DNA of 37,890 nucleotides from a virus: positions 1 to 37,890 of IMG/VR virus record IMGVR_UViG_3300010354_000228; one strand, written 5' to 3'. Position 1 is the first letter of the stretch, and the number at the start of each line of letters is the position of its first letter. Of the stretch, positions 6,428-35,703 are shown piece after piece. The translations under genes and the position numbers were made by a program. Under the pieces are notes generated by a model. The model worked only from the letters and a program-made list of their open reading frames with translations. It had not been told where the DNA came from and ran no database searches.

Positions 6428-8395
6428 TTATTTCTCTCTTACAATTACCTGTTTCCACGTATGACGGCATTGCGGTCTGTTGATTCCCGTATTCGGATTA
6501 TGATACCACCCTCCGCGTAATGACCATACGTTACGATCTTCACGTGCTGACATAGCATTAATGTCTTCACGGGAGTAAAGTTTACCCAATGCCATTAGAT
6601 CAGCGCAGAACTTACGCGACTGACCACCTGCCACCAATGCAGGTGCGTTCGTTTCCAAATCATACTTATACATCACTTTGTAATCCGAAGTCTTAGCAGG
6701 TTGTGCGTCCAATATCTCAGCGGCATCTTTCGCCACTTCGTACGACTTCACTGGCTCACCTGCTATGCTTTCTTTACTAGGTGTAATCAGATCACGTTCT
6801 AACAGTCTGGTAACAGCGTCACGCACTTGATACGGTGGCACTTTAATAGCCTTCGCCATTTCTTCAACAGGCATGAACGGGTCTTTCGTCAGCAAATCCA
6901 GAACCGATCTATCCACCGACTTAATCTTAACATCCGTTGCAAATTTAGACACAGGGTTTTGCGCCTCTGCCGTTAAAAACTGATGCTCAAACTCCGCTAA
7001 CTTAATGCCGTCATGCGTAGGAATGTCGCGTTCGTCCAAAATAACATATTTAGATGCGTCAACCCCGAATTGAGCGAATAAATCCAACTTAACCGCGCTG
7101 AATTGTGTCGCGGTTGTTTGTGTGGTAGTGGTTTTTATCCCTTTTGCGCCCACCATAGCGCGTATCTCTTCCGCTGTGAGTGATTCTGCCGCTTTAGTCT
7201 GTAATGCCTGTGGTAACGAGTTAAATGCGTTCAGCATCTTTGTCGCTTCGTCGCTCAGTTTAACATCCATGCCTAAAGGATTGAGTTTCTTCAATGCCAG
7301 ATTCAAACCGATACCAAAGTCAGACGCGAACATATTAAACACGCGCTCTAAAATTGTCTGGCGAAATTCCGCATACGTGTTCTGAAACATCTGATAGTAT
7401 GTCTCCAGTTCATTACGTTGCCCCAATGCGCCCTCTGTAGAATATCCCAACAATAGTTTAGGGAATTCATGAGCCGTGAAAATGTTGTGCAAACATTGAT
7501 CCGCGATCTCTTTATACAACACCGATTGATCCTGAACAACAGAATCAACCGCCTCAGTTCCCAAATCTTTATTCGGAGCAAATGCCACAACAATACGTTC
7601 ACCCTCTTCGCCTGTGAAATTACGCTTCATGCCGTCAACAATCACCTTCTGCTGTTCAGGCTCTGGCGTTTGTCCGTAAATGTTGATGATCTTCGCAGGT
7701 GAGAATGATGCGCTGATATTCTTGTACTGAAAGTCGGTGTATTTAACGTGGTTCTCAATCCACGTAACAGCACCAACGTACATAGGCAATGGATATGCGT
7801 ACTGATTAGCGGCATACGCTGACCAGTAATATATCTGATCACCTGAACGATCGTTTGCATCGTAAGGCTTGTAAACTTTCCAGTCTTTTTCTTCCTGTGG
7901 TTTTTTATTCTTCTTACGCAATCCGCGTGTGTCGGTAACGTACCACTTCTGCGTGTAATAGAACTCTGAACGGTCTGCATTGGTGCGAAGGTTGCCAAAG
8001 TCGATGTATTCCAACACAGCACCCTTACGCGACTTGTTCCACTTCACCAGAATTGCAAATCCGTTGTATTTCTCTAAGTCAGTAGCGCAGCGGAATGTAG
8101 TTTCATTCAAATCAACATCAGCAAACGGCTGATTGATCATTTTTTCCGCTAATGCTTTCTGCTCCAACGATACGATGCCCGTCTTATCGTAAGTCCATCC
8201 GCCACCAACGATATACTTAATCTTGGCGTTGATAATTGCCGAGTGATACGAAGAACGCTGATAAAGATTCTCCAAATAATAAGGGTAGTCGTTATCCTCT
8301 CCGTATGTAATCCAGTCCGCATCTTTTACCTCTAAGAATTTAGGCAACTTGCGATTCTCAAACTGAACAAAGTGTATGTTAGTATTTTCGCTCAT
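6428..8395 (-). CDS. Portal protein with C-terminal winged-helix and Mu F-like tail
   Basis: 655 residues. Residues 1-400 resemble siphovirus portals: YGEDNDYPYYLENLYQRSS, the IINAKIKYIVGGGW region, and GYSTEGALGQRNELETYY followed by an amphipathic helix. The C-terminus carries a segment resembling a winged helix (LLTKDPFMPVEEMAKAIKVP). After it comes a Cys/Arg/Trp motif (SRKFCADLMALGKLYSREDI ... LRGGWYHNP ... CRHTW) like that ending Mu F-type head morphogenesis proteins. Portals form the dodecameric DNA gate of the capsid. The start overlaps the upstream gene stop as ATGA. Confidence 0.85.
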   Translation of the reverse strand: MSENTNIHFVQFENRKLPKFLEVKDADWITYGEDNDYPYYLENLYQRSSYHSAIINAKIKYIVGGGWTYDKTGIVSLEQKALAEKMINQPFADVDLNETTFRCATDLEKYNGFAILVKWNKSRKGAVLEYIDFGNLRTNADRSEFYYTQKWYVTDTRGLRKKNKKPQEEKDWKVYKPYDANDRSGDQIYYWSAYAANQYAYPLPMYVGAVTWIENHVKYTDFQYKNISASFSPAKIINIYGQTPEPEQQKVIVDGMKRNFTGEEGERIVVAFAPNKDLGTEAVDSVVQDQSVLYKEIADQCLHNIFTAHEFPKLLLGYSTEGALGQRNELETYYQMFQNTYAEFRQTILERVFNMFASDFGIGLNLALKKLNPLGMDVKLSDEATKMLNAFNSLPQALQTKAAESLTAEEIRAMVGAKGIKTTTTQTTATQFSAVKLDLFAQFGVDASKYVILDERDIPTHDGIKLAEFEHQFLTAEAQNPVSKFATDVKIKSVDRSVLDLLTKDPFMPVEEMAKAIKVPPYQVRDAVTRLLERDLITPSKESIAGEPVKSYEVAKDAAEILDAQPAKTSDYKVMYKYDLETNAPALVAGGQSRKFCADLMALGKLYSREDINAMSAREDRNVWSLRGGWYHNPNTGINRPQCRHTWKQVIVREK

Positions 8396-8757
8396 GAATA
8401 TTGTACGGTAAGGTTATTCGATTCTGAATATTGTATCACGGCATCACCAATTACTTTCATCTGACCAACTTCGCAAAGGTTATCCGCTAACGTGTAATTT
8501 GTATTTACTGCCGATGTCTGCTCGTAAACGTAGTATGTGTAAATTCCAGACGGCAACACCAACGAACCGCCCTCTGTGATGTCGAACAAGTTAGAACGGG
8601 TTTTGTAGTTGTTGCTTACTTCAGTAATGATTGCCGTGTATTCAATGTTTGTAGCATCGTTAACGAAACGCCACAGCCACGTAGGATTGGTAAGCGTCTG
8701 TTTCTCGTAAAGAGTAACGGCTACGCGTGTCGTGGTATCTTTTGTGATCTGAAGCAT
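8392..8757 (-). CDS. Small structural protein upstream of portal
   Basis: 121 residues beginning MLQITKDTTTRVAVTLYEKQ. Beta-rich, with TWLWRFVNDATN and a central SGIYTYYVYEQTSA. No enzyme motif, no transmembrane segment. It is the first gene after the terminator-like hairpin at 8795-8827 and starts 5 nt after one of the five GTAAGTTTA promoter elements, so it probably opens a portal-connector-fibre transcript. Likely a virion or assembly component; no family named. Confidence 0.72.
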   Translation of the reverse strand: MLQITKDTTTRVAVTLYEKQTLTNPTWLWRFVNDATNIEYTAIITEVSNNYKTRSNLFDITEGGSLVLPSGIYTYYVYEQTSAVNTNYTLADNLCEVGQMKVIGDAVIQYSESNNLTVQYS

Positions 8758-8789
8758 CGTAATAAACTTACAGAATTGCGAATTGTTTA
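8758..8789 (-). promoter_or_regulatory. Late promoter-like element P1
   Basis: On the minus strand it reads TAAACAA, 11 nt, GTAAGTTTA (8771-8763), 5 nt, then the ATG at 8757. TAAGTTTA matches the Bacteroidota -7 box TAnnTTTG except for the last base. A TTG 21 nt upstream of TAAGTTTA could also serve as a -33. The initiation point would fall at or next to the ATG. Confidence 0.65.
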
Positions 8790-8794
8790 TACAA

Positions 8795-8827
8795 CAGAAA
8801 ACCCGTCCTTACGGGAACGGGCTTCTG
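8795..8827 (-). terminator. Rho-independent terminator-like hairpin
   Basis: Minus strand AAGCCCGT - 10-nt loop - ACGGGTTTT gives an 8-bp stem (one G-T pair) ending in a T run. It lies 45 nt after the stop of the gene at 8872-9387 and directly before promoter element P1, a clean transcript boundary. Confidence 0.65.
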
Positions 8828-8871
8828 AACTAACCGACGATGGAAACCATGACCACCGACCGTACCGACTC

Positions 8872-9387
8872 TTACAACTGATCGTAATTAGAGATCAAGA
8901 GCATACCGTCTTTTTCACGTCCTGCGAATGTAACAGAGTATCCGTTACGATCTGTGAACGCTGTTCCTGTTCCTGAGTTTGATGCGGAAACAATCATCCC
9001 GTTCTCATACCCGAACAACCAAGAGTTGCCATTCTTATCTTTAACCGCTACGTGTACCAACATACCGTGAAGGTTATTCAGAGTATTGCGGAACGCCTGC
9101 TTCAGTTTGTTGTTGATGTACGTTACAGTTTGTGTCTTAACTGAAGTACCTGTTGCGCGATCTGTTGCACCATCCTCCATCGCTACCGATGTCTCCTGTG
9201 CGCACTCGAACAAATACCAATCAGTCAACCCTGCTCCTGCGAAAGTGATACCTCCCGAAGTTACAGTAGCCAAACCGCCAGATACCAAAGTCGAACTGAA
9301 CGCACGTACTTTGATCTCCGCTACACCGCCTTGATTATCGTTACAATCAAGAGTAAATGAATTTAAAATGCTATTACTGCAAGGCAT
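8872..9387 (-). CDS. Putative virion protein (tail tube or head decoration type)
   Basis: 171 residues. Beta-rich: SFTLDCNDNQGGVAEIKVRA, FAGAGLTDWYLFE, NNLHGMLVHVAVKDKNG, then a terminal NGYSVTFAGREKDGMLLI. It stands alone between two terminator-like hairpins just downstream of the major capsid gene, so it is presumably made in high quantity. Both a tail-tube and a capsid-decoration role fit; the sequence does not decide. No Shine-Dalgarno site precedes the ATG. Confidence 0.65.
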   Translation of the reverse strand: MPCSNSILNSFTLDCNDNQGGVAEIKVRAFSSTLVSGGLATVTSGGITFAGAGLTDWYLFECAQETSVAMEDGATDRATGTSVKTQTVTYINNKLKQAFRNTLNNLHGMLVHVAVKDKNGNSWLFGYENGMIVSASNSGTGTAFTDRNGYSVTFAGREKDGMLLISNYDQL

Positions 9388-9403
9388 TTTCTAATGTGTT
9401 AAA

Positions 9404-9424
9404 GGGGAGGCGTTACACCTCCCC
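9404..9424 (-). terminator. GC-rich hairpin after the capsid gene
   Basis: A perfect 7-bp stem GGGGAGG/CCTCCCC with a 7-nt loop, followed on the minus strand by TTTAA. It lies 9 nt downstream of the capsid stop codon. The T run is short, so it may act as a partial terminator or as a 3' stabiliser of the capsid mRNA. Confidence 0.6.
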
Positions 9425-9432
9425 GTTATTAT

Positions 9433-10419
9433 TTATACTGTTGCGAAAGACACTACACGATCCGTGAAGAAGATGCCAGTAGCAATCTTGTAACGGTTAC
9501 GAGTGTAGAGTTTGTCGTCTTTCATTTCGTACCATGTAGCCCAATCATCCATATCAGAGATCAAGTCAGTTCCAACTACCAAGTTGTCTTTCTCGAAAGT
9601 GATGATACGATTCTTGTAAGCCGCAGGTAGGTTGCTGTTGTTGTCAGCGTTCAATCCGGGAACTGCTTTGATCTTCATTGAAGTTCCGAACAGAGTGATT
9701 TCACGTGATGGCAATCCGTTGTTACCGTTGTAGTGGTAAAGGTTTGCGTTAGCAAGAGCGATCAAAAGTTTGTCGAAAGTATCATCACCGCATACAGTGA
9801 TCAGGTTATCATTACGCTTCAGATCGGCAGGAGTTGCAAGCCATTGATTCTGGAAGATAGAGATCACGTTTGCAGTAGTGATAGCCGTTACAGATGTACC
9901 TGCGTAAGTCTGTGAGTTAACGTAACCACCTGCCGCATCAAGCGTCTTCAGGAATCCGTTGAACTGCTTCAGGTCTGTGCTGAAAGTGTTTGTCGTTGCT
10001 GACTGCCAGATAGCCATTTCCATCTTCTTCGCGATACGCGCTGTGTAGTCAGTCATGATCTGATCGAGCAATGCTGTTGCTGCGTTCTCGTCAATCTTAG
10101 CACCTGCACGGAGGTATTTCTGAGTGAACTTGCTTTCCAAATCTTTGAAGCACCATGAATCCTCAAATTTGATTCCTGTTACTGTCAAAGTCATTTGAGC
10201 AAATGTACCACCGTCACCAGACGCGTTAACAGTTGCACAAGTAGTGTCAGCCTGCATTGCAGGGTCTGTCGTTACATACGGAAGTTTCTCAGATGATTTG
10301 ATGCCTTCGCGTACTGTGAAAAGCGGCATTGAAACCGCGCCATAAACCCCTTTAAGTTTGAGGTCTGCTTTGTCCTCAATCGTATAGTTACTGAGCGACG
10401 ATACTGTAAATCCTGCCAT
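9433..10419 (-). CDS. Major capsid protein
   Basis: 328 residues, right size for an HK97-type shell protein. An N-terminal arm is followed by a long helix (KYLRAGAKIDENAATALLDQ), a central AIWQSATTNTFSTDLKQFNG region and a C-terminal GTDLISDMDDWATWYEMKDD typical of capsid A-domains in this phage group. It sits directly downstream of scaffold and protease genes and is followed by a hairpin. A 32-nt, almost G-free A/C-rich leader precedes the ATG instead of a ribosome-binding site. Confidence 0.85.
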   Translation of the reverse strand: MAGFTVSSLSNYTIEDKADLKLKGVYGAVSMPLFTVREGIKSSEKLPYVTTDPAMQADTTCATVNASGDGGTFAQMTLTVTGIKFEDSWCFKDLESKFTQKYLRAGAKIDENAATALLDQIMTDYTARIAKKMEMAIWQSATTNTFSTDLKQFNGFLKTLDAAGGYVNSQTYAGTSVTAITTANVISIFQNQWLATPADLKRNDNLITVCGDDTFDKLLIALANANLYHYNGNNGLPSREITLFGTSMKIKAVPGLNADNNSNLPAAYKNRIITFEKDNLVVGTDLISDMDDWATWYEMKDDKLYTRNRYKIATGIFFTDRVVSFATV

Positions 10420-10451
10420 TGTTTATTGTTGTTTGTGTTTGTTTCTAATTA

Positions 10452-11081
10452 TTATCGACTGTAAATTCTTGCGCGAAACTCTTCGATTGTTTCTTTCTTC
10501 GGTGCTTCGATCACGTTCTTTTCAACTTTCGATGTGTTCTGTGGCTCGTCACCGATTGCGTTAAGTGCCGCGTTAAATGATTCCGCTGCTTTGCTGAACT
10601 TCTCTTTCTCTGTATTGAGTTCTGCTTTAACCGCGTTGAATGCTTCTGTCATTGTAACGATTTCGCCTTTAAGTTTTTCAATTTCCTCTTTAGCAAAAAC
10701 CATTTCTTTCTCGATGCGCTCAATGATCTGTGTTGGTGTTGGTGCAGATGGTGCAGGGTTGCCACCTGCGTTCATTGGCTGCTCTCCTGTTGGTGCTTCA
10801 GGCTGTTCTGCCTCTGCCTCTGGTGATTTCACTTCTGCGATAACACCGCCTGAAGTATAGATCACAGTACCATCTTCCATAGTGTATTCACCATCAGGAA
10901 TAGGTGCTGCGCCTTGCTCGGTAACAACCATTACGGCTGAACCGACAATAGTTTCACCTTGAATTTCAATTACAGTTCCATCTGCCAATTTCGCATTAGC
11001 AAACTTCTCTTCTGTGGATAGGAACATTGCAAATCCTTCTTTGATTAGCTTCAGTCCTTCTTTCATTTTGTTTGTGTCCAT
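10452..11081 (-). CDS. Capsid scaffolding protein
   Basis: 209 residues, acidic and low complexity. An N-terminal helix is followed by LADGTVIEIQGETIVG, then a Pro/Glu/Ala linker (EAEAEQPEAPTGEQP). A long Lys/Glu coiled coil starts near residue 115 (ERIEKEMVFAKEEIEKLKGE), and a basic tail ends it. This composition and the slot between prohead protease and major capsid protein are typical of scaffolds, which fill the prohead and are cleaved out. The ATG lies 5 nt after promoter element P2. Confidence 0.75.
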   Translation of the reverse strand: MDTNKMKEGLKLIKEGFAMFLSTEEKFANAKLADGTVIEIQGETIVGSAVMVVTEQGAAPIPDGEYTMEDGTVIYTSGGVIAEVKSPEAEAEQPEAPTGEQPMNAGGNPAPSAPTPTQIIERIEKEMVFAKEEIEKLKGEIVTMTEAFNAVKAELNTEKEKFSKAAESFNAALNAIGDEPQNTSKVEKNVIEAPKKETIEEFRARIYSR

Positions 11082-11114
11082 CGTTGTAAACTTACGGGTT
11101 GATATAATCGTTTA
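11082..11114 (-). promoter_or_regulatory. Late promoter-like element P2
   Basis: Minus strand TAAACGA (11114-11108), 12 nt, GTAAGTTTA (11095-11087), 5 nt, ATG of the scaffold gene. The TAA inside GTAAGTTTA is also the stop codon of the upstream protease gene, so promoter and stop codon are packed into the same bases. Confidence 0.65.
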
Positions 11115-11823
11115 ATTTTTTAACTATGTCCTTAATGTCGTTCTGAGGATTGTAAACCGACTTAAAGGCGTATTTGAACATAGACTCAATGCTGAACCCT
11201 TTGAACTTCCCTAACTTCACATCCTGCCACACCTGTTCATTCTCCACGTAATAAGATTGAAACCACGTGCCATCAGGATATTTATCATTCAAAGCATTTG
11301 GCGCATTTACTCCGCGCTGTTTGTCGGTGATGAATGATTCAATCAGATACACGCCTTGTGGCTGTTGCGATCTGTCGTGCATCTCGTTAACAGCGTTGAA
11401 TCGGTTGTTCTTGCTCCACTTACGAACGAATAACTCAATGTCCTCTTTGGTGAAGTACACTTCATATTCCTGCCCGTTATCGTTGCGGTAGATGCGTTTA
11501 TCTGGAATCATAACCGCACCTGTGATGATGCGTCTATCTTGATCGGCAATTTTAAAACCAAATTGCGCTTCCATTCCTGTGTACATATTAATACACATCG
11601 CAACCGCTTGATCTTGATCTTTGCCGTCATTTATGTAATGCGGAACACAACGGCTCATCCAGTCCGATTCTGATTCGCCTGAGTTTGGTTTAATAAATTC
11701 CTGCTTATTGAACGCCATAAAATCGGATTCAATCGCAGGGTCATCTACCAGAGCGGTAAAAATTTCTTCCCCGTTTTCTTCGTCAGGGGAAACCGTCAAA
11801 CGGTACACAGGTAACTTAGCCAT
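11092..11823 (-). CDS. Prohead maturation protease (XkdF/S78-like)
   Basis: 243 residues. Likely catalytic residues are His149 in NEMHD and Ser211 in GFSIES, the spacing expected of XkdF-type capsid proteases, with TWFQSYYVENEQVWQDVKLG between them. An insert around residues 50-83 (SESDWMSRCVPHYINDGKDQ, then AVAMCINMYTG) carries a pair of cysteines and is a small module found in several phage head proteins. The enzyme should trim scaffold and capsid precursor. The start is 5 nt after promoter element P3; the stop is embedded in P2. Confidence 0.82.
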   Translation of the reverse strand: MAKLPVYRLTVSPDEENGEEIFTALVDDPAIESDFMAFNKQEFIKPNSGESESDWMSRCVPHYINDGKDQDQAVAMCINMYTGMEAQFGFKIADQDRRIITGAVMIPDKRIYRNDNGQEYEVYFTKEDIELFVRKWSKNNRFNAVNEMHDRSQQPQGVYLIESFITDKQRGVNAPNALNDKYPDGTWFQSYYVENEQVWQDVKLGKFKGFSIESMFKYAFKSVYNPQNDIKDIVKKLNDYINP

Positions 11824-11855
11824 CTTGATAAACTTACAATCGTGTCATTTGTTTA
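11824..11855 (-). promoter_or_regulatory. Late promoter-like element P3
   Basis: Minus strand TAAACAA (11855-11849), 11 nt, GTAAGTTTA (11837-11829), 5 nt, ATG of the protease gene. The first TAA is simultaneously the stop codon of the tape measure gene. Confidence 0.65.
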
Positions 11856-13514
11856 AAATCTACTGCGTTCCTCCTGAGCCTGAACATAGTCGCCCGTCTG
11901 ACGTATCTCAGTAACGCTCACGTACATCGGACGTTGTGGTTGTTGGTTCACGACCTGACCTTGCTCATTGATTAGCGTAGAAGGTTGCTGTGATGCATTT
12001 ACGTTTGGCGATCCCATCTCTAGCGATCCACTAGCACCAGAGCCGAATGATCCCGATGGTGCTGCCCCTCCCCCTTCTTCGTTGGTAGATAGGATTGATC
12101 GGATATTCGCAAGACCTGCGGCAAGGTTAGCCGCTGCCAGAATAAAGTTAGCAGGTGGCGGTGCTGAAGACAATGCAACCGATACCGCCTTGTAAGTGTT
12201 CACGGTAGCCTCAGCGACTGCGAACCCTTTCTGTAACTTGGCGTTTTTCTTGCTCAGTTGTGCCGCTGCCCCGAATAACTGAGCCGTTGCGTCTAACGTA
12301 GCCTTGTTCAGTTCTTCGCGGTCTTTCTTCTCCTGTAAATCCTGTTTCTTTTTAGCTACATACGCATCATACTCTTTCTTGCGTTTCGCTTCGATATACG
12401 CTTTGTGATTCTGTAAATCTTCTATGCGTCTGCGTTCCCGTTCGTCCGCTGCTTCCTTTTCGCGTTTCAGTTCTGCAATGTGCGCCTCTTCCTCTTTCTC
12501 ATGTTTGAGCCGTACATATTCGGCATGGCTCATTCTGTCCTCTGTACGCTTCTGCGCTTTGTCTGCGTTGGCGTTAGCATTTGTTTTCTTTGAATCCTCA
12601 GCCGCTTTCTGCTCTTCTATATTTAGAACGTCCAATTGATGTTTCAATTCATCAATAGCCACCTTCTGATCTTGTATTTGTTGTAACGCATCCTCAGAAC
12701 GCTCTTTTTTATTCTGAGCAATTGCCGCCTCTGCTTGATTAGTTCCGTTGACAACATCAGCAACCTTTAACAACGATTCCCAAAGGTTATCATTGTTTTC
12801 AATCTCTTTTAACTTCTGCTCATTTACAACTATTGCGGATTGCGCTTCTGCAATCTGCGCTTCAATCATAACGCGTTTGGCGGCAATTACTTTCTCTGTA
12901 CTTGCGCCTTGTGCCTCTAATAATTCAACCTCCTGTTGTTTCTCGCGTACCAGTTCAGCGGTGATCTGTTTTTGCTTTTCGTATGCACGTTCAGCTTTTG
13001 CAAGTTCAGAATTTAAATCCTGTTGCGCTGACCATACCTTGTACATCGCAGTTCCCAGAGCCGTAATAGCAATGGCAAACGCTGCGACTGGATTAGCCGA
13101 TATGATATTAAACAGACCGTTCAGAGCCTTGCCGAAATCCTTAACGCCCTGAATACCCTGAGCGAATGCCATAGCACTCTGAACCTTCAGCAACGCTTTC
13201 TCCGTTTCCTTCGATTGATCCCCGAACAGACCCATAGCACCAGTTACCAGACTGATGCCTGATGCCGCCTTGCTTGCGAAGTTTGCAGTAGCTTCTAACG
13301 CGTCTGGATTGTATGCGCGGATTGAATCATTAGCCGCGTTCATCTTTTCCTGAAGATCAGCGGCAGCCATAGCCAACTTATCGAACTCTGCCGATCCTTC
13401 CCCTGCCTGAAGCATGGCAGTCTTTAACTCTTTCAGTTGTTGTTTAATCTCACCAACCGACTGAGCCGCCATCGCGGTTTGTATCTTAACCTCTAATGAA
13501 ATTTCCTGTGCCAT
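11853..13514 (-). CDS. Tape measure protein
   Basis: 553 residues, long alpha-helical coiled coil. It starts with SVGEIKQQLKELKTAMLQAG, has a hydrophobic segment at about 136-162 (LFNIISANPVAAFAIAITAL), then an extended Glu/Lys/Arg-rich helix, a second hydrophobic block (ATVNTYKAVSVALSSAPPP), and a Gly/Ser-rich tail. This composition is typical of tape measures, which set tail length. At roughly 0.15 nm per residue it predicts a tail near 80 nm. It is transcribed after the tail-tip genes, unlike the usual chaperone-tape measure-tip order. Confidence 0.85.
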   Translation of the reverse strand: MAQEISLEVKIQTAMAAQSVGEIKQQLKELKTAMLQAGEGSAEFDKLAMAAADLQEKMNAANDSIRAYNPDALEATANFASKAASGISLVTGAMGLFGDQSKETEKALLKVQSAMAFAQGIQGVKDFGKALNGLFNIISANPVAAFAIAITALGTAMYKVWSAQQDLNSELAKAERAYEKQKQITAELVREKQQEVELLEAQGASTEKVIAAKRVMIEAQIAEAQSAIVVNEQKLKEIENNDNLWESLLKVADVVNGTNQAEAAIAQNKKERSEDALQQIQDQKVAIDELKHQLDVLNIEEQKAAEDSKKTNANANADKAQKRTEDRMSHAEYVRLKHEKEEEAHIAELKREKEAADERERRRIEDLQNHKAYIEAKRKKEYDAYVAKKKQDLQEKKDREELNKATLDATAQLFGAAAQLSKKNAKLQKGFAVAEATVNTYKAVSVALSSAPPPANFILAAANLAAGLANIRSILSTNEEGGGAAPSGSFGSGASGSLEMGSPNVNASQQPSTLINEQGQVVNQQPQRPMYVSVTEIRQTGDYVQAQEERSRF

Positions 13515-13520
13515 GTTATT

Positions 13521-14198
13521 TTAGAATGCGGCAACCTCTGCCCATTTGATAGTAAATCCTGCCGTCCATACTCCTGTCGCTGGGACAGTAGCGCGGATTA
13601 CAATACCTTCGTTTTGCGCTAACACAATAGGGTGTTCGCCATCAGCAACGTCACATTCAAACAGATCGTATTGCGGAAGAAATATCGAACCAATGATAGG
13701 TGTAGCCGCTCCAGTACCTGCGCTCGAATGCGATGTAATCATACCTATATCCTGCGTGTCTAAGGTCTTCGTGCCTGCGCTTAGTGCCGCAGTTGTAGAT
13801 ACACGCGCGTCACCGACTAGTGACGCACCCATGCTAGTACGCAACGATGCCTGATCTCCAGTAAGAGTTAATGCTGTACCGCCTGAACCACTTGCAGACC
13901 ACGAACGCGCAATACTAGCGCGAAGTGTTATTGCCCCAGCGGCAAATGCAGTTGTTGCTATAATGCCGTTGCAACTGATCTTATGAATAAGACACAAACG
14001 CGTTGAATCAGTCCATCGTAATTGAAACAATTCACCGTTTGCAGCCATGCCAGCACCAATAGTGCCAGTTTGTACCGCCACCTGATAATGCCCTAGTGTT
14101 CCGTAGGCTTGCGGTTTAGAAATTATGTGTAGTCCTTTTGCGTTCTCAGCGCTAACGCCTACAAGTTCGCCAGATGTTCCACCTTCAATGATTGCCAT
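13521..14198 (-). CDS. Structural protein in tail module
   Basis: 225 residues beginning MAIIEGGTSGELVGVSAENA. Gly/Ala/Thr-rich and beta-dominated (LFQLRWTDSTRLCLIHKIS; IVIRATVPATGVWTAGFTIK). No enzyme motif. It lies between the tape measure and tail-tip genes with 3-6 nt gaps on either side, so it is most likely a tail or decoration component. Proteins with the same N-terminal pattern are familiar from structural clusters of environmental phages, but I cannot name the function. Confidence 0.68.
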   Translation of the reverse strand: MAIIEGGTSGELVGVSAENAKGLHIISKPQAYGTLGHYQVAVQTGTIGAGMAANGELFQLRWTDSTRLCLIHKISCNGIIATTAFAAGAITLRASIARSWSASGSGGTALTLTGDQASLRTSMGASLVGDARVSTTAALSAGTKTLDTQDIGMITSHSSAGTGAATPIIGSIFLPQYDLFECDVADGEHPIVLAQNEGIVIRATVPATGVWTAGFTIKWAEVAAF

Positions 14199-14201
14199 GT
14201 G

Positions 14202-14618
14202 TTATGATATTATGTAGTTAAATTTGAAATTACCTTTTACTTTTCCTATTCTTGATACTTTGAGTATTGATGCGTCCTGATATGGTGTCAAAGCTGATAT
14301 TGATGATCGTACTGTGTTACCATCTGCAACCACTTTTGACACCGCTGTTAACGTCTTTGTTTGCCAGTAAACAGTAAACTGACCAGAACCTGCAACGGCA
14401 TTGCAGTCGATCAAATCCATTTCGTTCTCATCCGCTCTAGTGCCTTTGTTTGTCAGAGCGTCGAATCGTTGCCATACGTGTATCTTAGAAGTTGAAGATA
14501 CGGCAGCATCTATAACGGTAAACTTGCCGCTGAACGCAGGCCTACTGCCTAAGTTCTGTTCGATGCTCGTAATTGAAAACGAACCACCACCGCCTCCTAT
14601 TGATGTTAAGAATGTCAT
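14202..14618 (-). CDS. Small tail-tip associated protein
   Basis: 138 residues. A Gly-rich opening (MTFLTSIGGGGGSFSITSIE) is followed by a beta-rich domain with SGKFTVIDAAVSSTSKIHVW and ADENEMDLID. This resembles small C-terminal tail-fibre domains found in many virion proteins. It begins at the last base of the 909-residue tail protein stop codon and may form part of the same distal complex. Function beyond structural role unknown. Confidence 0.65.
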   Translation of the reverse strand: MTFLTSIGGGGGSFSITSIEQNLGSRPAFSGKFTVIDAAVSSTSKIHVWQRFDALTNKGTRADENEMDLIDCNAVAGSGQFTVYWQTKTLTAVSKVVADGNTVRSSISALTPYQDASILKVSRIGKVKGNFKFNYIIS

Positions 14619-17347
14619 TATGTGATGATGTAATAAGTTCCTGTATATGTTAATGTCAACGATTCATATTTGTGATTCATGCTAAATGATGCCACGCTGT
14701 TGTTATTGGCATATCTAATCGTCAATCCACCTCCTGCAACTGTAACCGTACTTCCATTAATGTTAAATACCTGAATCCGATCATTAACCCTTAACACATT
14801 TGAATCTAGTGTTAACGTCAGCAAACCGTTACAATAGTATGTCCCTGCGCCTGTTATTGTCTGGCTTGTAGTTACCGTGTGAATCTGATCAGACCCTAAA
14901 ACATATCTGTTGCCGTTGATATAGGTTACATTGCTTTCAGTAATCTCAATGTCATCTGTGTTGATTACCGTTACGCCTGTAATATTCGGTGAAATCGTTA
15001 CGCCTGATGATCCTGCGATAAAGTTGCTGTTCGATTCCGCTCCTATGAAGTTACGCGATCCGAAGGAAGCATTACCACCACCACCACGCTCAACTGAACT
15101 ACCCTCACCGACAACGATATTCAAACCGTCCAATGTACCACCACCTCCACGCGGTACAACGGAAACATCTCCGTTGGTGTTATTGGCATAACTCAATAAT
15201 GGATATGTAGCGGCAGAAAATACTTCGCGGCTTTTCTTTAACAGAAATTCGCATTTAGTAACACCCTCTTTCGCAGGATTGTAATCTATGATGCGCAGTA
15301 ACCTGTAATAATGCCCGTGTATAAAATATTCATCGCGGAAACTCAACCGCAGAAAGTCCAACGGCTTCAAATAGAAATATCCGATCACTACCTTACTATT
15401 TCGATCTGTGATTTCCTCGATGTACTTTTTATGGTAACGATTCCACAGGTTTCCGTCCGTGTAATTTGTAGCGGAATAATATATCTCACGCGGATTGCTG
15501 AAGTTCAGATCAAACGTAGGAGTATCAATGTCGTCCAAATGACCAGACGCAGGATATACCGTTTCAACGTATGTGCCTGATGCGGTGATGTAGTTCCACG
15601 GGTAGATAGTATTACGCTCAACCGTAGCGATCAATCTACGAAGTCCTGATTTAATACGCTTGCGGTTGCCTCCTGATTCGATGGTGTAAATCTCAGGATA
15701 TACGCGATCATCTGAACCTCGTCCGACCATTGGCGTTGATTCAAAGATTGATGTATAGACGTTATCGTTCTTTACAAAGTCATTCGTCACATCGTGCTTT
15801 TTCATACCATACCCTTCCGCGTATGTGTTGCGGTATAGCGTACTGAAATAATCCGACGATTCCTTCCATTGCAAAACGTATCTACGCGAATCGAGCGCAC
15901 CCATCGGCTGAATCTCGAATGACTTTGACACGTCTAACTTATGCGACCAATCGCGTTGAGTTCCCGATGAATAGAAATCTTCTGCCGTATCAATATAAAC
16001 TTTGTTCGGTTGTGTCTTGTCTGGCTCAACCATCAGGTTAAAGTCCTTTACAACGGAAAGGAAATAATCTACCAGTTTAACGTCATTCGGCAACCACGCG
16101 TTCATATCAACCGTAGCACCTTCAACAATTGACGCATTGGTAACGCTATTGAAGAAAGTACCTGCATCTAAATTGAACTGAGCATATTGACCTCCTGTTG
16201 TATTTGAGCCTAATATTCTTGGAGCAAGTTCAACCCAGACAATATCACCTGCATTACATTGTACAGTATTTGTAGTGTAGGTAAATGTTACCGACGCAGT
16301 ACTATTGCCTGAATAAATACTACCACCTAATTGATTAAAGATATATTGCTGTCCTAATGTTGTAATAGTCGCACCACGTTGATGCTTTATGGTTACAACT
16401 AAACTCGAATTACCAATATTTAATACGTCTCCACCAACGGCAGAGAAGTTAAAATTACCCGACACTTTGAATTCGTAATATCCTGCCGATACTGTTGTGA
16501 ATAGATATGTTGCAGGGTTGTACTGTCCGTCAGGATCGCTTAACTCATTATCGAAAGGAAATGGTACAGGAATACTTGCCCACGTTGATTCATCAAGTAC
16601 CGTGTAAGGTGCGCTGATCTCTGCGCTGAATAATCTATCCTGAGCCTGCGTTTGACTCAATAAAAACGATGTGCCTGTAAACGGAAGGACGAAAGTAGAG
16701 AATGTGCCGCCAGTAATAAATGGTGAATCGTATTCATATCCTGCATACGCCATTACCTTATCAAAGATCACTTTCTCATAAACGGCAGGATAAAAGTGAT
16801 TCACATTCCAATTCACACCATCATTATCTCCGTACTGAATCATCGGGTAATGATAACCCATTGAAGGGTCAATAGTACCCCACGTCGCTTGTTGCGTTGC
16901 ACGATCATACGTGTGATTCCATTCACTTAAATCTAAATCGGCAAAAGTGGCAGTTCCTAAATTCGTTACTATGTTCCCAAGATCACCAAATACCTCGCAG
17001 TCGTAAATTACTTTACCTAAATCCTGATTATCGCGTTTTATTCCGCGCATCCTCATAAATCCTCTGAACTGCTCAACCCCGTCAACTTGTATGACGGCAT
17101 TTGCTTTTAAGTTAGGATTATAGTCAGGATTAAAGTTCGTTACCGATGTATTCTGAATTTCTGTGAACTCAAATATCTGCCCGAACAAACGATTAACAAC
17201 CGTAGTACCGATTACTTGAATAGTACGGCTGAATCCTCCGTTGCGTTTGTCAGGATTCTTAATATCGGCAATAGCCATTGTTAAAGAGATACCTACATCC
17301 TCTTTAATGGCTACCGATACTCCGTTAATAAATAGTTCTACCCTCAT
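14618..17347 (-). CDS. Large tail protein, probable baseplate/tail-tip hub
   Basis: 909 residues. The N-terminal ~150 residues (FINGVSVAIKEDVGISLTMA, KNPDKRNGGFSRTI, YDCEVFGDLGNIVTNLG) look like a tail hub/attachment domain. The middle contains a long beta-rich region and NDVKLVDYFLSVVKDFNLMV, and the C-terminal 200 residues are Gly/Asn/Thr-rich repeats resembling a fibre or beta-helix (RGGGGTLDGLNIVVGEGSS). Proteins of this layout are found in Bacteroidota siphoviruses next to the tape measure. It overlaps its upstream neighbour by ATGA. Confidence 0.72.
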   Translation of the reverse strand: MRVELFINGVSVAIKEDVGISLTMAIADIKNPDKRNGGFSRTIQVIGTTVVNRLFGQIFEFTEIQNTSVTNFNPDYNPNLKANAVIQVDGVEQFRGFMRMRGIKRDNQDLGKVIYDCEVFGDLGNIVTNLGTATFADLDLSEWNHTYDRATQQATWGTIDPSMGYHYPMIQYGDNDGVNWNVNHFYPAVYEKVIFDKVMAYAGYEYDSPFITGGTFSTFVLPFTGTSFLLSQTQAQDRLFSAEISAPYTVLDESTWASIPVPFPFDNELSDPDGQYNPATYLFTTVSAGYYEFKVSGNFNFSAVGGDVLNIGNSSLVVTIKHQRGATITTLGQQYIFNQLGGSIYSGNSTASVTFTYTTNTVQCNAGDIVWVELAPRILGSNTTGGQYAQFNLDAGTFFNSVTNASIVEGATVDMNAWLPNDVKLVDYFLSVVKDFNLMVEPDKTQPNKVYIDTAEDFYSSGTQRDWSHKLDVSKSFEIQPMGALDSRRYVLQWKESSDYFSTLYRNTYAEGYGMKKHDVTNDFVKNDNVYTSIFESTPMVGRGSDDRVYPEIYTIESGGNRKRIKSGLRRLIATVERNTIYPWNYITASGTYVETVYPASGHLDDIDTPTFDLNFSNPREIYYSATNYTDGNLWNRYHKKYIEEITDRNSKVVIGYFYLKPLDFLRLSFRDEYFIHGHYYRLLRIIDYNPAKEGVTKCEFLLKKSREVFSAATYPLLSYANNTNGDVSVVPRGGGGTLDGLNIVVGEGSSVERGGGGNASFGSRNFIGAESNSNFIAGSSGVTISPNITGVTVINTDDIEITESNVTYINGNRYVLGSDQIHTVTTSQTITGAGTYYCNGLLTLTLDSNVLRVNDRIQVFNINGSTVTVAGGGLTIRYANNNSVASFSMNHKYESLTLTYTGTYYIIT

Positions 17348-18606
17348 CCACGCTGTCGGTTATATTCCTGCGATAATTCAAATACAATTTTCAAATTGCT
17401 CAAATCAGTATTGCCAAATTGAACAGACATCAACTCTGATTCAGTTGGTGATGTAATAGTGCCTCTGAGTAATGTTGTGCCTGTATCAATAAATACAACA
17501 GGCGATTCAATCAACCCCATCAGCATAAATGAATCATCCAATGATATCCAGTCAGATGTAAGTTCATAACGTGCCTGAATGCGTGTGTCGTGAACGATTA
17601 CTCCTGCATCCTGCTTTGTATAGGCGTAAGAGTTGACACCCATGCGCCCTAACTTACGTCTGTATGTGTCGGTTGTTTTCTTCGTCTTATACTTACTTAT
17701 CATTGTAAACTGATAAGAATCGAATCCACCCTTAGTATTTAACCAATGCAGAGTAAACGCATATCGCTCATTATAGCAATTACCGTCATTGTTAAATTGA
17801 AATTCGGTGTTAGTCGTGTAGTTCATTCCTGTGAAATCAACTAGATCAACCGTGTAATATGCGACAGAACTATCTATGACAGGCTGACTTCCTGAGTATA
17901 GCGTTGCGGCATTTAACGCCCTTGCCCCTGCCATAAAGTATTGGCGTTTATGCGAATAATTAGAAACCGCCTCGTAAGCATTCTGAATCTTTGCAGTCTG
18001 TATCAACCCTCCTGCACTATTGTATGTCTTAACCTCAGCAAAGTACGCTGTGCCTGACGTAGTCGTGATGAAGTGTAAATATCTATCGTTGTAAGTATTA
18101 TCGAATGAATAAGTCTGCGGACTGGTCATAACATTTAACCATCCTCCACCCGTTTCTAGCGTTACATTGTTTCCGTTGTAATCTAACCATTGATCGGTAT
18201 TATACACGGCATTATACGCCTGTAATGTACCCGTGACGGTCAGATTCGGAAACGTAGTAACAACACCGCCTGATTCATATTGCTCCCCAAATTTAACCTC
18301 GTATGCAACCCATGAATTGGATGCTAACTGAAACCCGTTGCCAGTCTTAACAATGTCGAAGTTATCAACCGTTTGATTACCTAGCCCTAGAAATGATTCA
18401 AGACAACGTGCGACGTTAAAATAGCCTTGATTGTGTACAGGATCGGCATCGCACACCATGCGGAAGTAACCAGCAGAACCAGATACATACACGTCAGCGA
18501 TGTACTTAAATTGCGGTTGCCCCACATTAGATGAATCCATCACAAACTCAATGGGATTGTAAACTGGCATCCACGCGTCAACAGACTGCTGTAATGTTAT
18601 AGCCAT
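17344..18606 (-). CDS. Tail structural protein (distal tail type)
   Basis: 420 residues, beta-rich with many Tyr/Asn/Thr. It opens MAITLQQSVDAWMPVYNPIE and has YFNVARCLESFLGLGN and NTKGGFDSYQFTMISKYKTK. It is tightly coupled (1-nt and 4-nt overlaps) to the tail-completion gene and to the 909-residue hub gene. Position between completion protein and hub fits a Dit-like distal tail protein, but I see no diagnostic motif. Confidence 0.68.
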   Translation of the reverse strand: MAITLQQSVDAWMPVYNPIEFVMDSSNVGQPQFKYIADVYVSGSAGYFRMVCDADPVHNQGYFNVARCLESFLGLGNQTVDNFDIVKTGNGFQLASNSWVAYEVKFGEQYESGGVVTTFPNLTVTGTLQAYNAVYNTDQWLDYNGNNVTLETGGGWLNVMTSPQTYSFDNTYNDRYLHFITTTSGTAYFAEVKTYNSAGGLIQTAKIQNAYEAVSNYSHKRQYFMAGARALNAATLYSGSQPVIDSSVAYYTVDLVDFTGMNYTTNTEFQFNNDGNCYNERYAFTLHWLNTKGGFDSYQFTMISKYKTKKTTDTYRRKLGRMGVNSYAYTKQDAGVIVHDTRIQARYELTSDWISLDDSFMLMGLIESPVVFIDTGTTLLRGTITSPTESELMSVQFGNTDLSNLKIVFELSQEYNRQRG

Positions 18607-19184
18607 TAATCTTCTTCGTTAATAATTGATACTTCAAACATCTCACCTGCAATCGGGGCAAGTTCTTCGGATAGCTGATTCAATAGATTATCGTTAACCA
18701 CTTCCGAATAGAATCCGTAGCCCTTCGATTTGTAGCCGTGTTTGTGAATCTTACTTGCAATGGCAAAGGATAGTGAGCGGTTTGCTTCGTTGATGTTTTC
18801 AAATCGTTGCATTCTAGGCTTACCGTCCTTATTGAATACTGGCGTGCCGTTCTTTTTAACCTGAACCTCTAACTTTAATGGCATTTCTCTTTTTGCAATC
18901 CATCCGTCAGCACCGTGCAATTTACTTTGCACCGTTCCGTTAATTGATGCTGTTTTTTTCTTTGTCACTCCCCGTCCTTCGTCAACGAACTTGCCGTAAT
19001 CCTCCATTTGGATTCTAAGCACGTAACCGTCCGCAACCTTTTCAACGGGTAACGCTACTATGGATTGCGCCAAAGAGCTAGTGGAGAAATACCCGTCTTT
19101 CGATTCTAGGTTCTCCCTGATCTGATCGGTAACTCCCTGCGCCCATTTGGTAAGGTGATCGAATATGAAATCGGATTCTGCCAC
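18606..19184 (-). CDS. Tail completion/neck protein (HK97 gp10-like)
   Basis: 192 residues, GTG start at 19184. An N-terminal amphipathic helix is followed by YGKFVDEGRGVTKKKT, which resembles the conserved Y-x-x-F-V-E-x-G-T block of HK97 gp10-type tail-completion proteins. The C-terminal AIASKIHKHGYKSKGYGFYS and an acidic helix follow. Such proteins cap the tail at the neck. The start lies 4 nt after promoter element P4, so it probably heads a tail transcript. Confidence 0.72.
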   Translation of the reverse strand: MAESDFIFDHLTKWAQGVTDQIRENLESKDGYFSTSSLAQSIVALPVEKVADGYVLRIQMEDYGKFVDEGRGVTKKKTASINGTVQSKLHGADGWIAKREMPLKLEVQVKKNGTPVFNKDGKPRMQRFENINEANRSLSFAIASKIHKHGYKSKGYGFYSEVVNDNLLNQLSEELAPIAGEMFEVSIINEED

Positions 19185-19215
19185 GTTTTAAACTTACAGA
19201 AAACGTATTTGATTA
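19185..19215 (-). promoter_or_regulatory. Late promoter-like element P4
   Basis: Minus strand TAATCAA (19215-19209), 11 nt, GTAAGTTTA (19197-19189), 4 nt, GTG start of the tail-completion gene. The element falls in the 35-nt gap after the frameshifted chaperone stop. Confidence 0.65.
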
Positions 19216-19219
19216 GACG

Positions 19220-19974
19220 TTAAAGACGTTGTGACTTCAGCGCATCCATAGCGTCTTTGTGTTCTGCCTGAATATCGCGAATCATCGCTAAACGATTGTA
19301 AAAGGCTACCACGTTCATTTCGTAGTAGTCTTTTTCTTTGGTCACATCCCCGTCAGTAAGTTCGTAGATTACTTTAACCCACCCCCATTTTTCAAAGGCA
19401 GTTGGTTTTCCTTTATCGTTCTGATCGCTTTCTGAGCGGCTTTCGCCAAATAATTTTCGATACCCCTTTCTAATATCGGCAAGACCCTGCAAAAAAAAAG
19501 CGCAATGCCGTTACCTACTGGAGCAGGTAAGGATTTGAATAACTCCACGCGCTCGGTGAATGATAGTTTCTTCTTCCAGAACTTTAACCCGTTCACCTCC
19601 TTTGCGAATACGGATATAACAATAGGAATGTTTGAATAGAAATTATCCTGATCAATCTTTAACAGTTGTATCTCCGCCAGTTCCTTAACCGTCACATTAC
19701 GCGCTGAAGCGATGAATATGAACTTCCGACCTCCTACCTTCAATACAGGACTAAACTCTGCCTGTGGCTCTTTCTGTAACAATGCGTATAACTCCGTCCG
19801 TAGCTTCCCGAACTCGGCAGGGGTCATTCCGTTAATGTGGTCTTCGCTGTAACCTGTGAAGATTGAAATCAACGCCACGTCACGATCAAATAGCTCCACC
19901 AGATCGGAAGTGTGAAACTGCGTCAGGTTGTACACCTCTGGTAATTGCCCTACGGTTACTTTATCCCAGTTCAT
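19220..19974 (-). CDS. Tail assembly chaperone, long form made by -1 frameshift
   Basis: The zero frame (19974 down) reaches a run of nine T (19499-19491) at codons 159-161, CTT TTT TTT. A one-base backward slip there joins it to a 90-codon frame ending at 19220, giving about 251 residues. The downstream frame has no usable ATG (only a TTG inside the T run) yet encodes a well-formed domain (FEKWGWVKVIYELTDGDVTK, then YYEMNVVAFYNRLAM). This is the lambda G/GT arrangement, in which both forms are needed for tail assembly. A sequencing error in the homopolymer is the alternative. Confidence 0.8.
19369..19974 (-). CDS. Tail assembly chaperone, short form
   Basis: 201 residues in the unshifted frame, starting MNWDKVTVGQLPEVYN and ending KENQLPLKNGGGLK. 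The helical N-terminal 150 residues carry LVELFDRDVALISIFTGYSE and a LSFTERVELFKSLPAPVGNG stretch just before the slippery site. Equivalent to lambda gpG in layout. The ATG is 4 nt after promoter element P5. After the slip site the zero frame runs on for 40 residues that look less conserved than the -1 frame product. Confidence 0.78.
   Translation of the reverse strand: MNWDKVTVGQLPEVYNLTQFHTSDLVELFDRDVALISIFTGYSEDHINGMTPAEFGKLRTELYALLQKEPQAEFSPVLKVGGRKFIFIASARNVTVKELAEIQLLKIDQDNFYSNIPIVISVFAKEVNGLKFWKKKLSFTERVELFKSLPAPVGNGIALFFCRVLPILERGIENYLAKAAQKAIRTIKENQLPLKNGGGLK
19491..19500 (-). promoter_or_regulatory. Programmed -1 ribosomal frameshift slippery site
   Basis: Minus strand C followed by nine T, read CTT TTT TTT TGC in frame 0. 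A -1 slip gives CTT TTT TTT TTG CAG. All possible tRNA re-pairings on the T run are perfect, and the resulting fusion matches the gpG/gpGT organisation of siphovirus tail chaperones. Confidence 0.75.
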
Positions 19975-20005
19975 ATCCTAAACTTACATATTTAACTATT
20001 GATTA
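19975..20005 (-). promoter_or_regulatory. Late promoter-like element P5
   Basis: Minus strand TAATCAA (20005-19999), 11 nt, GTAAGTTTA (19987-19979), 4 nt, ATG of the tail chaperone gene. Its first TAA is the stop codon of the large terminase gene. Confidence 0.65.
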
Positions 20006-21205
20006 AAAGTGAACCGACACCGCTGAATAGATCGGATGTTTTAACGATTCATAGGCTATTGCCGTTGCCATTATTCCGTCATCGTGAAAACCGTAAGGCG
20101 CACCGTACTTAATTGATCGGCTCTTTGCGTTGTATTCAAACGTAAACACATCAAACTCTTTAATGAGCCAATCAACAGGCAGAAAGGTAACCGCGTTCTG
20201 TTGTGTCGCAACGGCTAACGATTCAATTATATCGTTCTTACTCTTGGACGTTGTTACAAACGGGTTCACGTTCATCGGTGTCCTGCATTGGTTTTTAATC
20301 TGCTCCATTATAGCATCACCGATACTATTCACTTCCACGTAAGTAATGGCGTTAAACTCATTGATACGGGCTGCAATCTTTGCGGATATATTCGACCATG
20401 AATCGTGTCGCCACCGCTCCAAATAAACCTGCTTACCTTGCTCGTTAAAGATGGATATGACGGAGTAATCGTCTGCCCGTCCTAAATCCACACCTGCATA
20501 GAATCGTGTTCCTCCCGTTGCGGTTTCAAACTTAGGACTGAATATACCTGCCCCACCGTCTATGAACTCAGCTAGATATTCCTGCCTGAATACGTGATCA
20601 GGTAATGTTAAACGCGCATCGTCAATCTCGCTAGGGTTGATTAGCGGATTGTTATACGACGACATCGTGAATGACTTGTACTGAGGGTTAACCCCGTCTA
20701 AGTTATACAGATTGTAGAAGTGGTTTTTACCTTTCGGGGTGCTGATCAGTAATACTTTCTTCCCTTTGACCAATACCGTTGCGCGTAATACTTCCGTCCA
20801 TGCCTCCTCGTCCATGAACGCAAACTCATCACAAACAAGATAATCGAACGTAAAGCCTCGAATGTTGTCGTAACGCTCTGCCGAAAAGAATTGAAGCGAT
20901 GATTTCCCACACTTGATAGTTAATTCTGTTGCGTTGGTTTGTATCAGGTCTGTTCCTGCAAACGCCTGAACCATTTCCTCAAACACTTTCTTCGACTGCT
21001 TATACACGGGTGACACCCATGCACACTTACACCCTGCATCGTTGAACATCCAGAAGTATAGCTGATTCATCGCTAACATCGTCTTTCCGAACTGGCGACC
21101 AATGTTTAACACATAATACTTACAGGTATTATTGTTTATCGCCTGATGGATTAGGCTCTGGTTGTGGTGTGGTGTGTATAGGGTTACCGAAAGAGGCTGT
21201 GACAT
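20003..21205 (-). CDS. terL: Terminase large subunit
   Basis: 400 residues. The ATPase half has Walker A GRQFGKT at 36-42, Walker B with DYLVCDE at 121-127, and the coupling motif LLISTPKG near 152-159. The nuclease half begins with YAGVDLGRADDYSV (first acidic residue Asp240) and ends with HDDGIMATAIA supplying the last metal-binding Asp residues. It powers DNA translocation into proheads and cuts the concatemer. It overlaps the small subunit gene by 77 nt in a different frame. Unusually, the portal gene is some 11.6 kb further downstream. Confidence 0.95.
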   Translation of the reverse strand: MSQPLSVTLYTPHHNQSLIHQAINNNTCKYYVLNIGRQFGKTMLAMNQLYFWMFNDAGCKCAWVSPVYKQSKKVFEEMVQAFAGTDLIQTNATELTIKCGKSSLQFFSAERYDNIRGFTFDYLVCDEFAFMDEEAWTEVLRATVLVKGKKVLLISTPKGKNHFYNLYNLDGVNPQYKSFTMSSYNNPLINPSEIDDARLTLPDHVFRQEYLAEFIDGGAGIFSPKFETATGGTRFYAGVDLGRADDYSVISIFNEQGKQVYLERWRHDSWSNISAKIAARINEFNAITYVEVNSIGDAIMEQIKNQCRTPMNVNPFVTTSKSKNDIIESLAVATQQNAVTFLPVDWLIKEFDVFTFEYNAKSRSIKYGAPYGFHDDGIMATAIAYESLKHPIYSAVSVHF

Positions 21206-21608
21206 TTGTTACCGTTTGATGCTGCGTTACTTCGTCCTTCCATCCGTGCTTATTCTTCAGTTTGAATATCGCGCCCTGTGTTGATCCTGCCCACATAAGT
21301 TTCTGTTCAACATCGTCTTCCATAATTGATTCAAGGGTATAGATAATGTCCGAAAACATCGGATTGTGTTTATAGTCAGACCATGACTGACGGTTTGTAA
21401 ATCCTAAGAATAAACGTAACCCTGCTTCTGTATATTTCCCTTTACGCACCTGATCGCACCATTCAAAGTATTCAAGTCCTTTTGTGATTAGAGTAATCGG
21501 GTCGTCGTAGTGTCTGGGTCTTCCTCCGTTAAAATTCTCTCTAACGTAAGACCACATATTCTTTTCCGTGAATCTTCCTTTTTCGTCGCGTCCTTCGTTG
21601 TTATCCAT
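21129..21608 (-). CDS. terS: Terminase small subunit
   Basis: About 159 residues from the ATG at 21608; an in-frame TTG five codons earlier is less likely. The helical DNA-recognition region reads ITKGLEYFEWCDQVRKG and AGLRLFLGFTNRQSWSDYK, and a following GAIFKLKNKHGWKDE is characteristic of P22 gp3-like small terminases. The C-terminal Pro/Thr-rich tail overlaps the large subunit start. It selects the packaging site and loads the large subunit. Confidence 0.85.
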   Translation of the reverse strand: MDNNEGRDEKGRFTEKNMWSYVRENFNGGRPRHYDDPITLITKGLEYFEWCDQVRKGKYTEAGLRLFLGFTNRQSWSDYKHNPMFSDIIYTLESIMEDDVEQKLMWAGSTQGAIFKLKNKHGWKDEVTQHQTVTNVTASFGNPIHTTPQPEPNPSGDKQ

Positions 21609-21825
21609 TTTCGTATTGATCAATAAATTCGTTAATTCTGTTATACATATGACTTATGCAGCCTCCGCATCTTTCGTTTACAATGTGGTTATCGCGTTCT
21701 GCCATTATTCTACCCATTGTCGGTCTTGCTTGTCTGCTTATTTCCGATCCTGTGTTTCTGAAGTGTCGGATAATTTGCAGAAACGGTTTCAGGTCGTTGT
21801 AGTCGTTATCGGTTAAGACGGTCAT
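21601..21825 (-). CDS. Small hypothetical protein with CxxC motif upstream of terminase
   Basis: About 74 residues from the ATG at 21825 (a TTG precedes it by one codon). Features: SEISRQARPTMGRIMAERDN followed by NERCGGCISHMYNRINEF. The CGGC motif in a helical context could bind zinc or be redox active. It overlaps terS by 8 nt and the membrane protein gene by about 20 nt. I recognise the pattern as a recurring phage protein but not a function. Confidence 0.75.
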   Translation of the reverse strand: MTVLTDNDYNDLKPFLQIIRHFRNTGSEISRQARPTMGRIMAERDNHIVNERCGGCISHMYNRINEFIDQYENG

Positions 21826-22066: not shown

Positions 22067-22316
22067 TGTTATAGATTACGGTTTGTGTCGAGTTAAACGT
22101 TCCTGTTGATTCAAAGTTACGAATAATATGATAAGTGCCAAAAGTAGCCCCTGCGTTTATTTTGTCCTGTTCGTTGCAGGTGTAGGTGTATAGCATCCGT
22201 TGGTGACGTTTGCAGTAGTTGTAAAGTGCTACGTGTAATTCTTTAGACGTGCATCCGATCTGGATCACATCGCCTTCGGTTGTCTTTAACAGTTGCTTTG
22301 CTTCGGTTGGTGTCAT
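22059..22316 (-). CDS. Hypothetical protein
   Basis: 85 residues starting MTPTEAKQLLKTTEGDVIQI. Soluble, with HVALYNYCKRHQRMLYTYTC and a Thr/Asn-rich C-terminus. It overlaps the glycosyltransferase-like gene upstream by ATGA and the membrane protein gene downstream by 8 nt. No family recognised; coupling suggests it belongs to the same transcript as the glycan island. Confidence 0.7.
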   Translation of the reverse strand: MTPTEAKQLLKTTEGDVIQIGCTSKELHVALYNYCKRHQRMLYTYTCNEQDKINAGATFGTYHIIRNFESTGTFNSTQTVIYNNV

Positions 22317-34484: not shown

Positions 34485-34514
34485 CAAAGATACGGCAAGA
34501 TTTGATATGTGCAA
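34485..34514 (-). promoter_or_regulatory. Leftward early promoter
   Basis: Minus strand TTG (34514-34512), 19 nt, TATCTTTG (34492-34485): perfect match to the Bacteroidota consensus. The -33 overlaps the left copy of the 11-bp inverted operator (34513-34523). Confidence 0.8.
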
Positions 34515-35669: not shown

Positions 35670-35703
35670 GTCTGGTTTAAAAATTTATAAAAATAGCAAA
35701 GGA

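Follow-up and report, generated by a model that had tools for sequence, protein, structure and literature searches.

The window, by which is meant the whole 37,890-nt stretch of DNA analysed here, is a virus record in which a packaging and assembly block occupies the minus strand. The genes and features on which the argument turns are given below.

6428-8395, minus strand: portal gene, packaging/assembly block
11092-11823, minus strand: protease-like gene, packaging/assembly block
11853-13514, minus strand: tape-measure-like gene, packaging/assembly block
20003-21205, minus strand: large terminase (TerL) gene, used for finding relatives and as a synteny landmark
21129-21623, minus strand: small terminase gene, packaging/assembly block
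27833-28378, minus strand: candidate phage ECF-like sigma gene (181 aa, GTG start), putative reader of five repeated elements
34485-34514, minus strand: candidate host-type early promoter, TTG-N19-TATCTTTG, with a 37-nt leader ahead of gene 34247-34447

No Shine-Dalgarno-like signal was seen ahead of the window's genes, and searches of the window gave no Rfam matches and no tRNAs. A GIY-YIG gene lies at 34791-35303, and two adjacent plus-strand genes (35668-36357 and 36481-37086) each match C5-cytosine methyltransferases over the N-terminal part alone.

Within the block there is a repeated element composed of two boxes, the copies of which are as follows.

8763-8789, minus strand: TAAACAA (8783-8789), N11, GTAAGTTTA (8763-8771), 5 nt to the ATG of 8392-8757, the gene before the portal
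11087-11114, minus strand: TAAACGA (11108-11114), N12, GTAAGTTTA (11087-11095), 5 nt to the ATG of 10452-11081
11829-11855, minus strand: TAAACAA (11849-11855), N11, GTAAGTTTA (11829-11837), 5 nt to the ATG of the protease-like gene 11092-11823
19189-19215, minus strand: TAATCAA (19209-19215), N11, GTAAGTTTA (19189-19197), 4 nt to the GTG of 18606-19184
19979-20005, minus strand: TAATCAA (19999-20005), N11, GTAAGTTTA (19979-19987), 4 nt to the ATG of 19369-19974, directly after TerL

The initial annotation had described five minus-strand copies lying 4-5 nt from start codons and, at 11-12 nt upstream of every copy, TAAWCRA; measurement bears this out, the distances being 5, 5, 5, 4 and 4 nt and the gaps 11, 12, 11, 11 and 11 nt. 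The upstream box occupies a region about 26-33 nt, and the downstream box about 5-14 nt, ahead of start codons that are backed by the aligned N-termini of homologues. When both strands of the window were searched GTAAGTTTA occurred exactly five times, always on the minus strand, against an expectation of 0.39 copies from dinucleotide shuffles, none of 100 of which contained five. A scan of the window with a two-box matrix scored the five copies at 24-26 bits and revealed no sixth strong copy, the best independent other site reaching less than 13 bits and the best of 20 shuffles 17.3. The coordinates also agree with the earlier statement that in three copies a TAA is common to the element and the stop codon of the preceding gene: the TerL stop (20003-20005) and that of the tape-measure-like gene (11853-11855) fall inside upstream boxes, and that of the protease-like gene (11092-11094) falls inside the GTAAG of a downstream box, in the element at 11087-11114. 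To call the five downstream genes structural was fair, as all belong to the 15-gene packaging/assembly block, and only the protease-like one among them has a clear family match; we infer their late expression from gene function. One of them, 19369-19974, carries in its 3' part a run of exactly nine T (19491-19499, minus strand), beyond which the -1 frame stays open for 31-57 aa past the stop and the other frame extends to 19220. The run is kept in nine relatives from several clades and looks, from its sequence context, like a programmed frameshift or slippage site of the sort found in the G/GT genes of tail assembly chaperones.

Relatives were sought in IMG/VR through TerL, which matched 260 records, of which 80 were kept. 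The window's exact element is missing from close relatives with TerL 75-82% identical, and eleven loci among the TerL relatives have a single GTAAGTTTA each. A pattern scan of IMG/VR returned, among the matches listed, nearly all single occurrences, and three copies in one close relative, L153. Relatives carry instead, at the majority of the genes that have the element in the window and equally far from the start codon, elements with a clade-specific spelling, ATACTATTA and TGATATATA among them. The expectation set beforehand, that related phages should conserve the motif upstream of the same genes, was thus largely borne out for position and failed for exact sequence. The spellings by clade are these.

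Clade A (window, G015): TAAWCRA-N11/12-GTAAGTTTA
Clade B (G001, G002, G003, G006, G007): mostly TAAACGA or TAAACAA, N11/12, GTAATTTTA, N5 to ATG
Clade C (G004, G005): TC[CA]AC[AG]A with CGTCTTTA or GTGTCTTTA, N5
Clade D (G008, G009, G022, G025): T[AG]CACAA with TATACTTA, mostly N5
Clade E (G010-G013): ATACTTAA/ATACTTTA, two sites
Clade F (G020): CAATAA-type box with ATA[CT]TA[CT]TA, N3-4
G014: TGATATAT[AT], N5
G026: GGTATTAT, N5-6

These clades are small in number and their contigs are metagenomic. Genes of the block that have no element in the window have none in the relatives either. Counted over whole records, the clade B pattern occurs 4-6 times per long contig, on one strand, in contigs where control matches number zero, though two of the six copies in G002 and in G003 are inside genes. 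Words near start codons were also counted de novo; the count, noisy in AT-rich genomes, recovered the elements of clades A, B and D, G014 and G026 and yielded nothing clear for clade E. The element at 19184 is absent in clade C and that at 19974 in clade B, and one copy in clade D stands 15 nt from its start codon, so that neither the set of sites nor the close approach to the start codon that would make transcripts leaderless is universal. A different spelling in each clade at the same sites favours a promoter read by a trans-acting factor more strongly than simple conservation would, as far as sequence can tell. In clade B (L016, L020, L022, L025, L027) AAAACCAAA recurs 4-5 nt ahead of several candidate start codons, perhaps as an A-rich translation signal.

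An element less than 35 nt from start codons, in Bacteroidota lacking Shine-Dalgarno sites, might act in the mRNA, as a translation signal, a protein-binding site or a hairpin ahead of the start codon, and in three copies TAAAC and GTTTA are complementary. However, that complementarity is broken in two window copies (TAATC) and in clades C and D, the element spans the stop codons of preceding genes, other genes of the block do without it, and the 15-nt copy in clade D is hard to accommodate. A hairpin was rejected as no stable fold was obtained in clades A-D (0 to -2 kcal/mol), and we regard action in the mRNA as very improbable indeed.

An important consideration is whether the copies within a genome have changed together. 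The 9-mer adjoining the start codon was compared using one genome per clade (two for B), and mean likeness was 7.07 of 9 between different genes of one genome, against 5.43 of 9 between clades at the same gene. When clade labels were shuffled within genes in 2,000 trials the maximum was 6.31 (p=0.0005), and the effect was absent at nine other late genes (4.98 within, 5.15 between). Had upstream DNA simply been inherited, the reverse pattern would be expected, so the change appears to be coordinated, and since the copies change together the signature points to one trans-acting factor that reads all of them.

The gene at 27833-28378 is a candidate for that factor. It is the sole window gene outside the 15-gene block that is present in all ten near-complete genomes (nine by gene-presence comparison and the tenth, G014, by a wider profile), and in every clade the gene lies upstream of the terminases, 33 orthologs having been detected. 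Protein identity between clades A, B and C is only about 28-32%, against about 80% for TerL, and the protein diverges too fast for the back-translated-peptide and alignment searches, which missed the orthologs; they were found by synteny and an iterated profile. The single sequence has no Pfam match, and there is no PHROGs match, but a profile of 24 orthologs compared with the PDB matched ECF sigma factors over both domains (SigR sigma-2 at 6.6e-6; SigW at 2.9e-5 over residues 9-176). The AF2 model (pLDDT 79.5) has a disordered linker, and was compared domain by domain: the first domain aligned with sigma-2 5uxx_C (Z 7.0, 3.1 A over 73) and the second with sigma-4 2h27_D (Z 6.4, 3.6 A over 67), although common helical arrangements can give Z values of this order. 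Foldseek with the whole model found nothing significant in the PDB (best E 0.5), which may reflect two domains on a flexible linker, and some of its viral matches carry the names sigma-70 family or sigma-24. As the fold scores are modest, it is the sequence profile that carries most weight, and 27833-28378 is probably a phage ECF-like sigma factor, cognate to the five elements.

The pairing of sigma and promoter is drawn from co-occurrence and coordinated change rather than from covariation of residues, and the two distances do not simply track one another, the sigmas of A and B and of A and C being about equally distant whilst their boxes are not. Some relatives have a host-like -7 box directly ahead of the sigma gene (TAAGTTTG in G002 and G003, TATATTTG in L034 and L069). 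In clade B2 the sigma genes (L020:3343-3894, L016:3343-3894) have GTAAGTTTG 5 nt ahead of the GTG; this combines the late box of the window with the final G of the host box, and could mark expression by both forms of the polymerase. Between the sigma gene and the terminase the window carries, at 22313-27858 on the minus strand, glycosyltransferase-like and FkbM/TylF-type methyltransferase genes, a cluster that is absent from clade E and perhaps serves virion glycosylation or a change of the cell surface.

Could the elements be read by a sigma factor of the host, be it the primary one, acting at imperfect TAnnTTTR boxes, or an ECF factor, with the clade differences reflecting different hosts? 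The initial annotation had likened GTAAGTTTA to the Bacteroidota -7 box TAnnTTTG, and TAAGTTTA and TAATTTTA are indeed similar to it, whilst the -10 CGT box of clade C and of the cultured phage P12024S is known in host ECF promoters of F. psychrophilum (PMC9723704). The likeness proved partial: all five window copies read TAAGTTTA, departing from TAHHTTTG with an A in place of the final G and, at the fourth position, a G, a base all but absent there from F. johnsoniae promoters (PMC6847099). TTG lies at the usual distance, about -33, in the 8757 copy only, although the -33 box is weak even in F. johnsoniae (PMC6847099). Moreover, the primary-sigma box is identical in Bacteroides and Flavobacterium, so a change of host should not re-spell it, and the sigma-like gene is core to the phage family. 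Reading by a host sigma is on these grounds unlikely. Still less probable is a phage activator or polymerase modifier other than the sigma-like protein, redirecting the host holoenzyme in the manner of T4 MotA/AsiA. The upstream box does stand nearer than the usual -33 box, 12-13 nt ahead of the TA in the downstream one, as might suit an activator, and the protein 28592-29020 has a DnaA-C-like helix-turn-helix; this protein was rejected as the activator, being found in only four of the ten near-complete genomes, and there are no other regulatory core genes. Both boxes change between clades, which fits one factor that reads both.

The reading best supported is the phage-specific late promoter that had been proposed at the outset, and it is considered likely, from the sequence comparisons set out above, that the five copies serve a Bacteroidota siphovirus as late promoters, read by a phage-encoded ECF-like sigma and placed for leaderless late mRNAs. 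A Bacteroidota host is what the neighbouring data point to: the sole match in a genome collection, at 65% identity, is to a 3-kb contig from a Chitinophagaceae bin, the sole cultured relatives by portal are Nonlabens phages (portal 20% identity), and there are candidate host-type early promoters. No cultured-phage matches were found to the protein 9433-10419 or to a clade B sigma. The pattern TTG-N19-TAnnTTTG has a genome-wide count near chance, so the early-promoter argument rests on the one site at 34485-34514, a similar site with a leader of about 35 nt recurring in G001, G003 and G005.

Under the late-promoter reading, early genes would be transcribed by the host RNA polymerase from ordinary TTG/TAnnTTTG promoters, and the sigma gene would be expressed by read-through or from a promoter of its own. 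Its product would then bind the host core polymerase and take it to the late elements, and as the sigma diverges all its promoters would be expected to change along with it. The transcription start site of F. johnsoniae promoters lies 4-5 nt past the -7 box (PMC6847099), and the window's box ends 4-5 nt before the start codon, from which the late transcripts are predicted to be leaderless or nearly so, with transcription beginning at the start codon or adjoining it, within 1-2 nt. The first gene of each late transcript would accordingly be translated from a leaderless mRNA, with one exception in clade D for which a short leader is expected. Host mRNAs usually have leaders of more than 10 nt (PMC6847099); the share of leaderless mRNAs in F. 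psychrophilum is 5.5% (PMC9723704), and in B. thetaiotaomicron some 3.7% of 5' UTRs are shorter than 10 nt (PMC7366714).

Among cultured phages the layout recurs in Nonlabens phage P12024S. The gene just ahead of its terminase encodes a protein with Sigma70_r2 above the Pfam cut-off that also matches the profile of the 27833-28378 family, and its genome has, on one strand, exact AAACAA-gap-CGTTAAT at six sites and a variant, with CGTTACT at 167, at a seventh, each standing ahead of a late gene and 4-5 nt before ATG, where 0.06 exact two-box patterns are expected. As in the window, the gene before the portal is among those preceded by a site. No published report of P12024S late promoters was found in the portions of the literature open to the search.

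Taken more widely, we lean slightly towards a family of Bacteroidota siphoviruses, large and for the most part uncultured, with an ECF-like sigma of its own, bearing no name in the family libraries searched, with leaderless late mRNAs, and with sigma and promoters re-spelled jointly in one lineage after another, the smallest step being a single base. A core gene that had lacked annotation, from an abundant group of phages, is hereby linked to a probable function, and the related genomes offer many matched sigma-promoter pairs, the closest of them one base apart in the downstream box. Such pairs are what is needed to learn how the specificity of a sigma shifts without breaking its regulon and, if the reading is true, they form a natural series of specificity changes. 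Leaderless late transcripts are predicted for Bacteroidota, a phylum whose translation begins without Shine-Dalgarno sites and in which such mRNAs are rare. Putative late promoters are also supplied for phages that have no wet-lab model, with cultured P12024S sharing the layout.

A literature search, with subscription papers mostly outside its scope, found no published report of this promoter-sigma system, but several known systems resemble it in part. P12024S and P12024L (Inhavirus) have a sigma gene just before the terminase and a repeated two-box element 4-5 nt ahead of late starts; their element is different (AAAACAA-N15-CGTTAAT) and their proteins are remotely related to those of the window. 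Bacteroidota primary-sigma promoters have a box close to that of the window and a box-to-TSS distance equal to its box-to-start distance; the window differs in its last base A, the G at the forbidden position, the want of a regular TTG at -33 and the TAAWCRA box. Bacterial ECF sigmas (SigW, SigH, RpoE) share the two domains with a flexible linker, SigW matching the profile over nearly the whole length, but the 27833-28378 family is outside Pfam and PHROGs recognition and its -10 boxes range from CGTC to TAATTTTA. The closest precedent is that of gp36 of phiEco32 and gp47 of 7-11, in which a phage sigma works with the host core polymerase at repeated late-gene elements, and in which promoter positions agree whilst the sigmas and promoter sequences differ (PMC8948821); the authors predicted that further phage sigma-promoter pairs exist (PMC8948821). 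Here too an element is repeated ahead of several late genes (five copies in the assembly block), and relatives have the same sites with a sequence that differs alongside the sigma, single-site exceptions occurring in clades B, C and D. The sigmas of phiEco32 and 7-11 are, however, 15% alike and independent acquisition was inferred by the authors (PMC8948821), whereas here one recognisable family extends over many lineages, down to the one-base step; the host phylum is another; and there transcription begins 6-9 bp from the box (PMC8948821), whereas the window's start codons are only 4-5 nt away. The window's system fits the phiEco32/7-11 kind, but its start codons stand too near the box for a leader to be expected.
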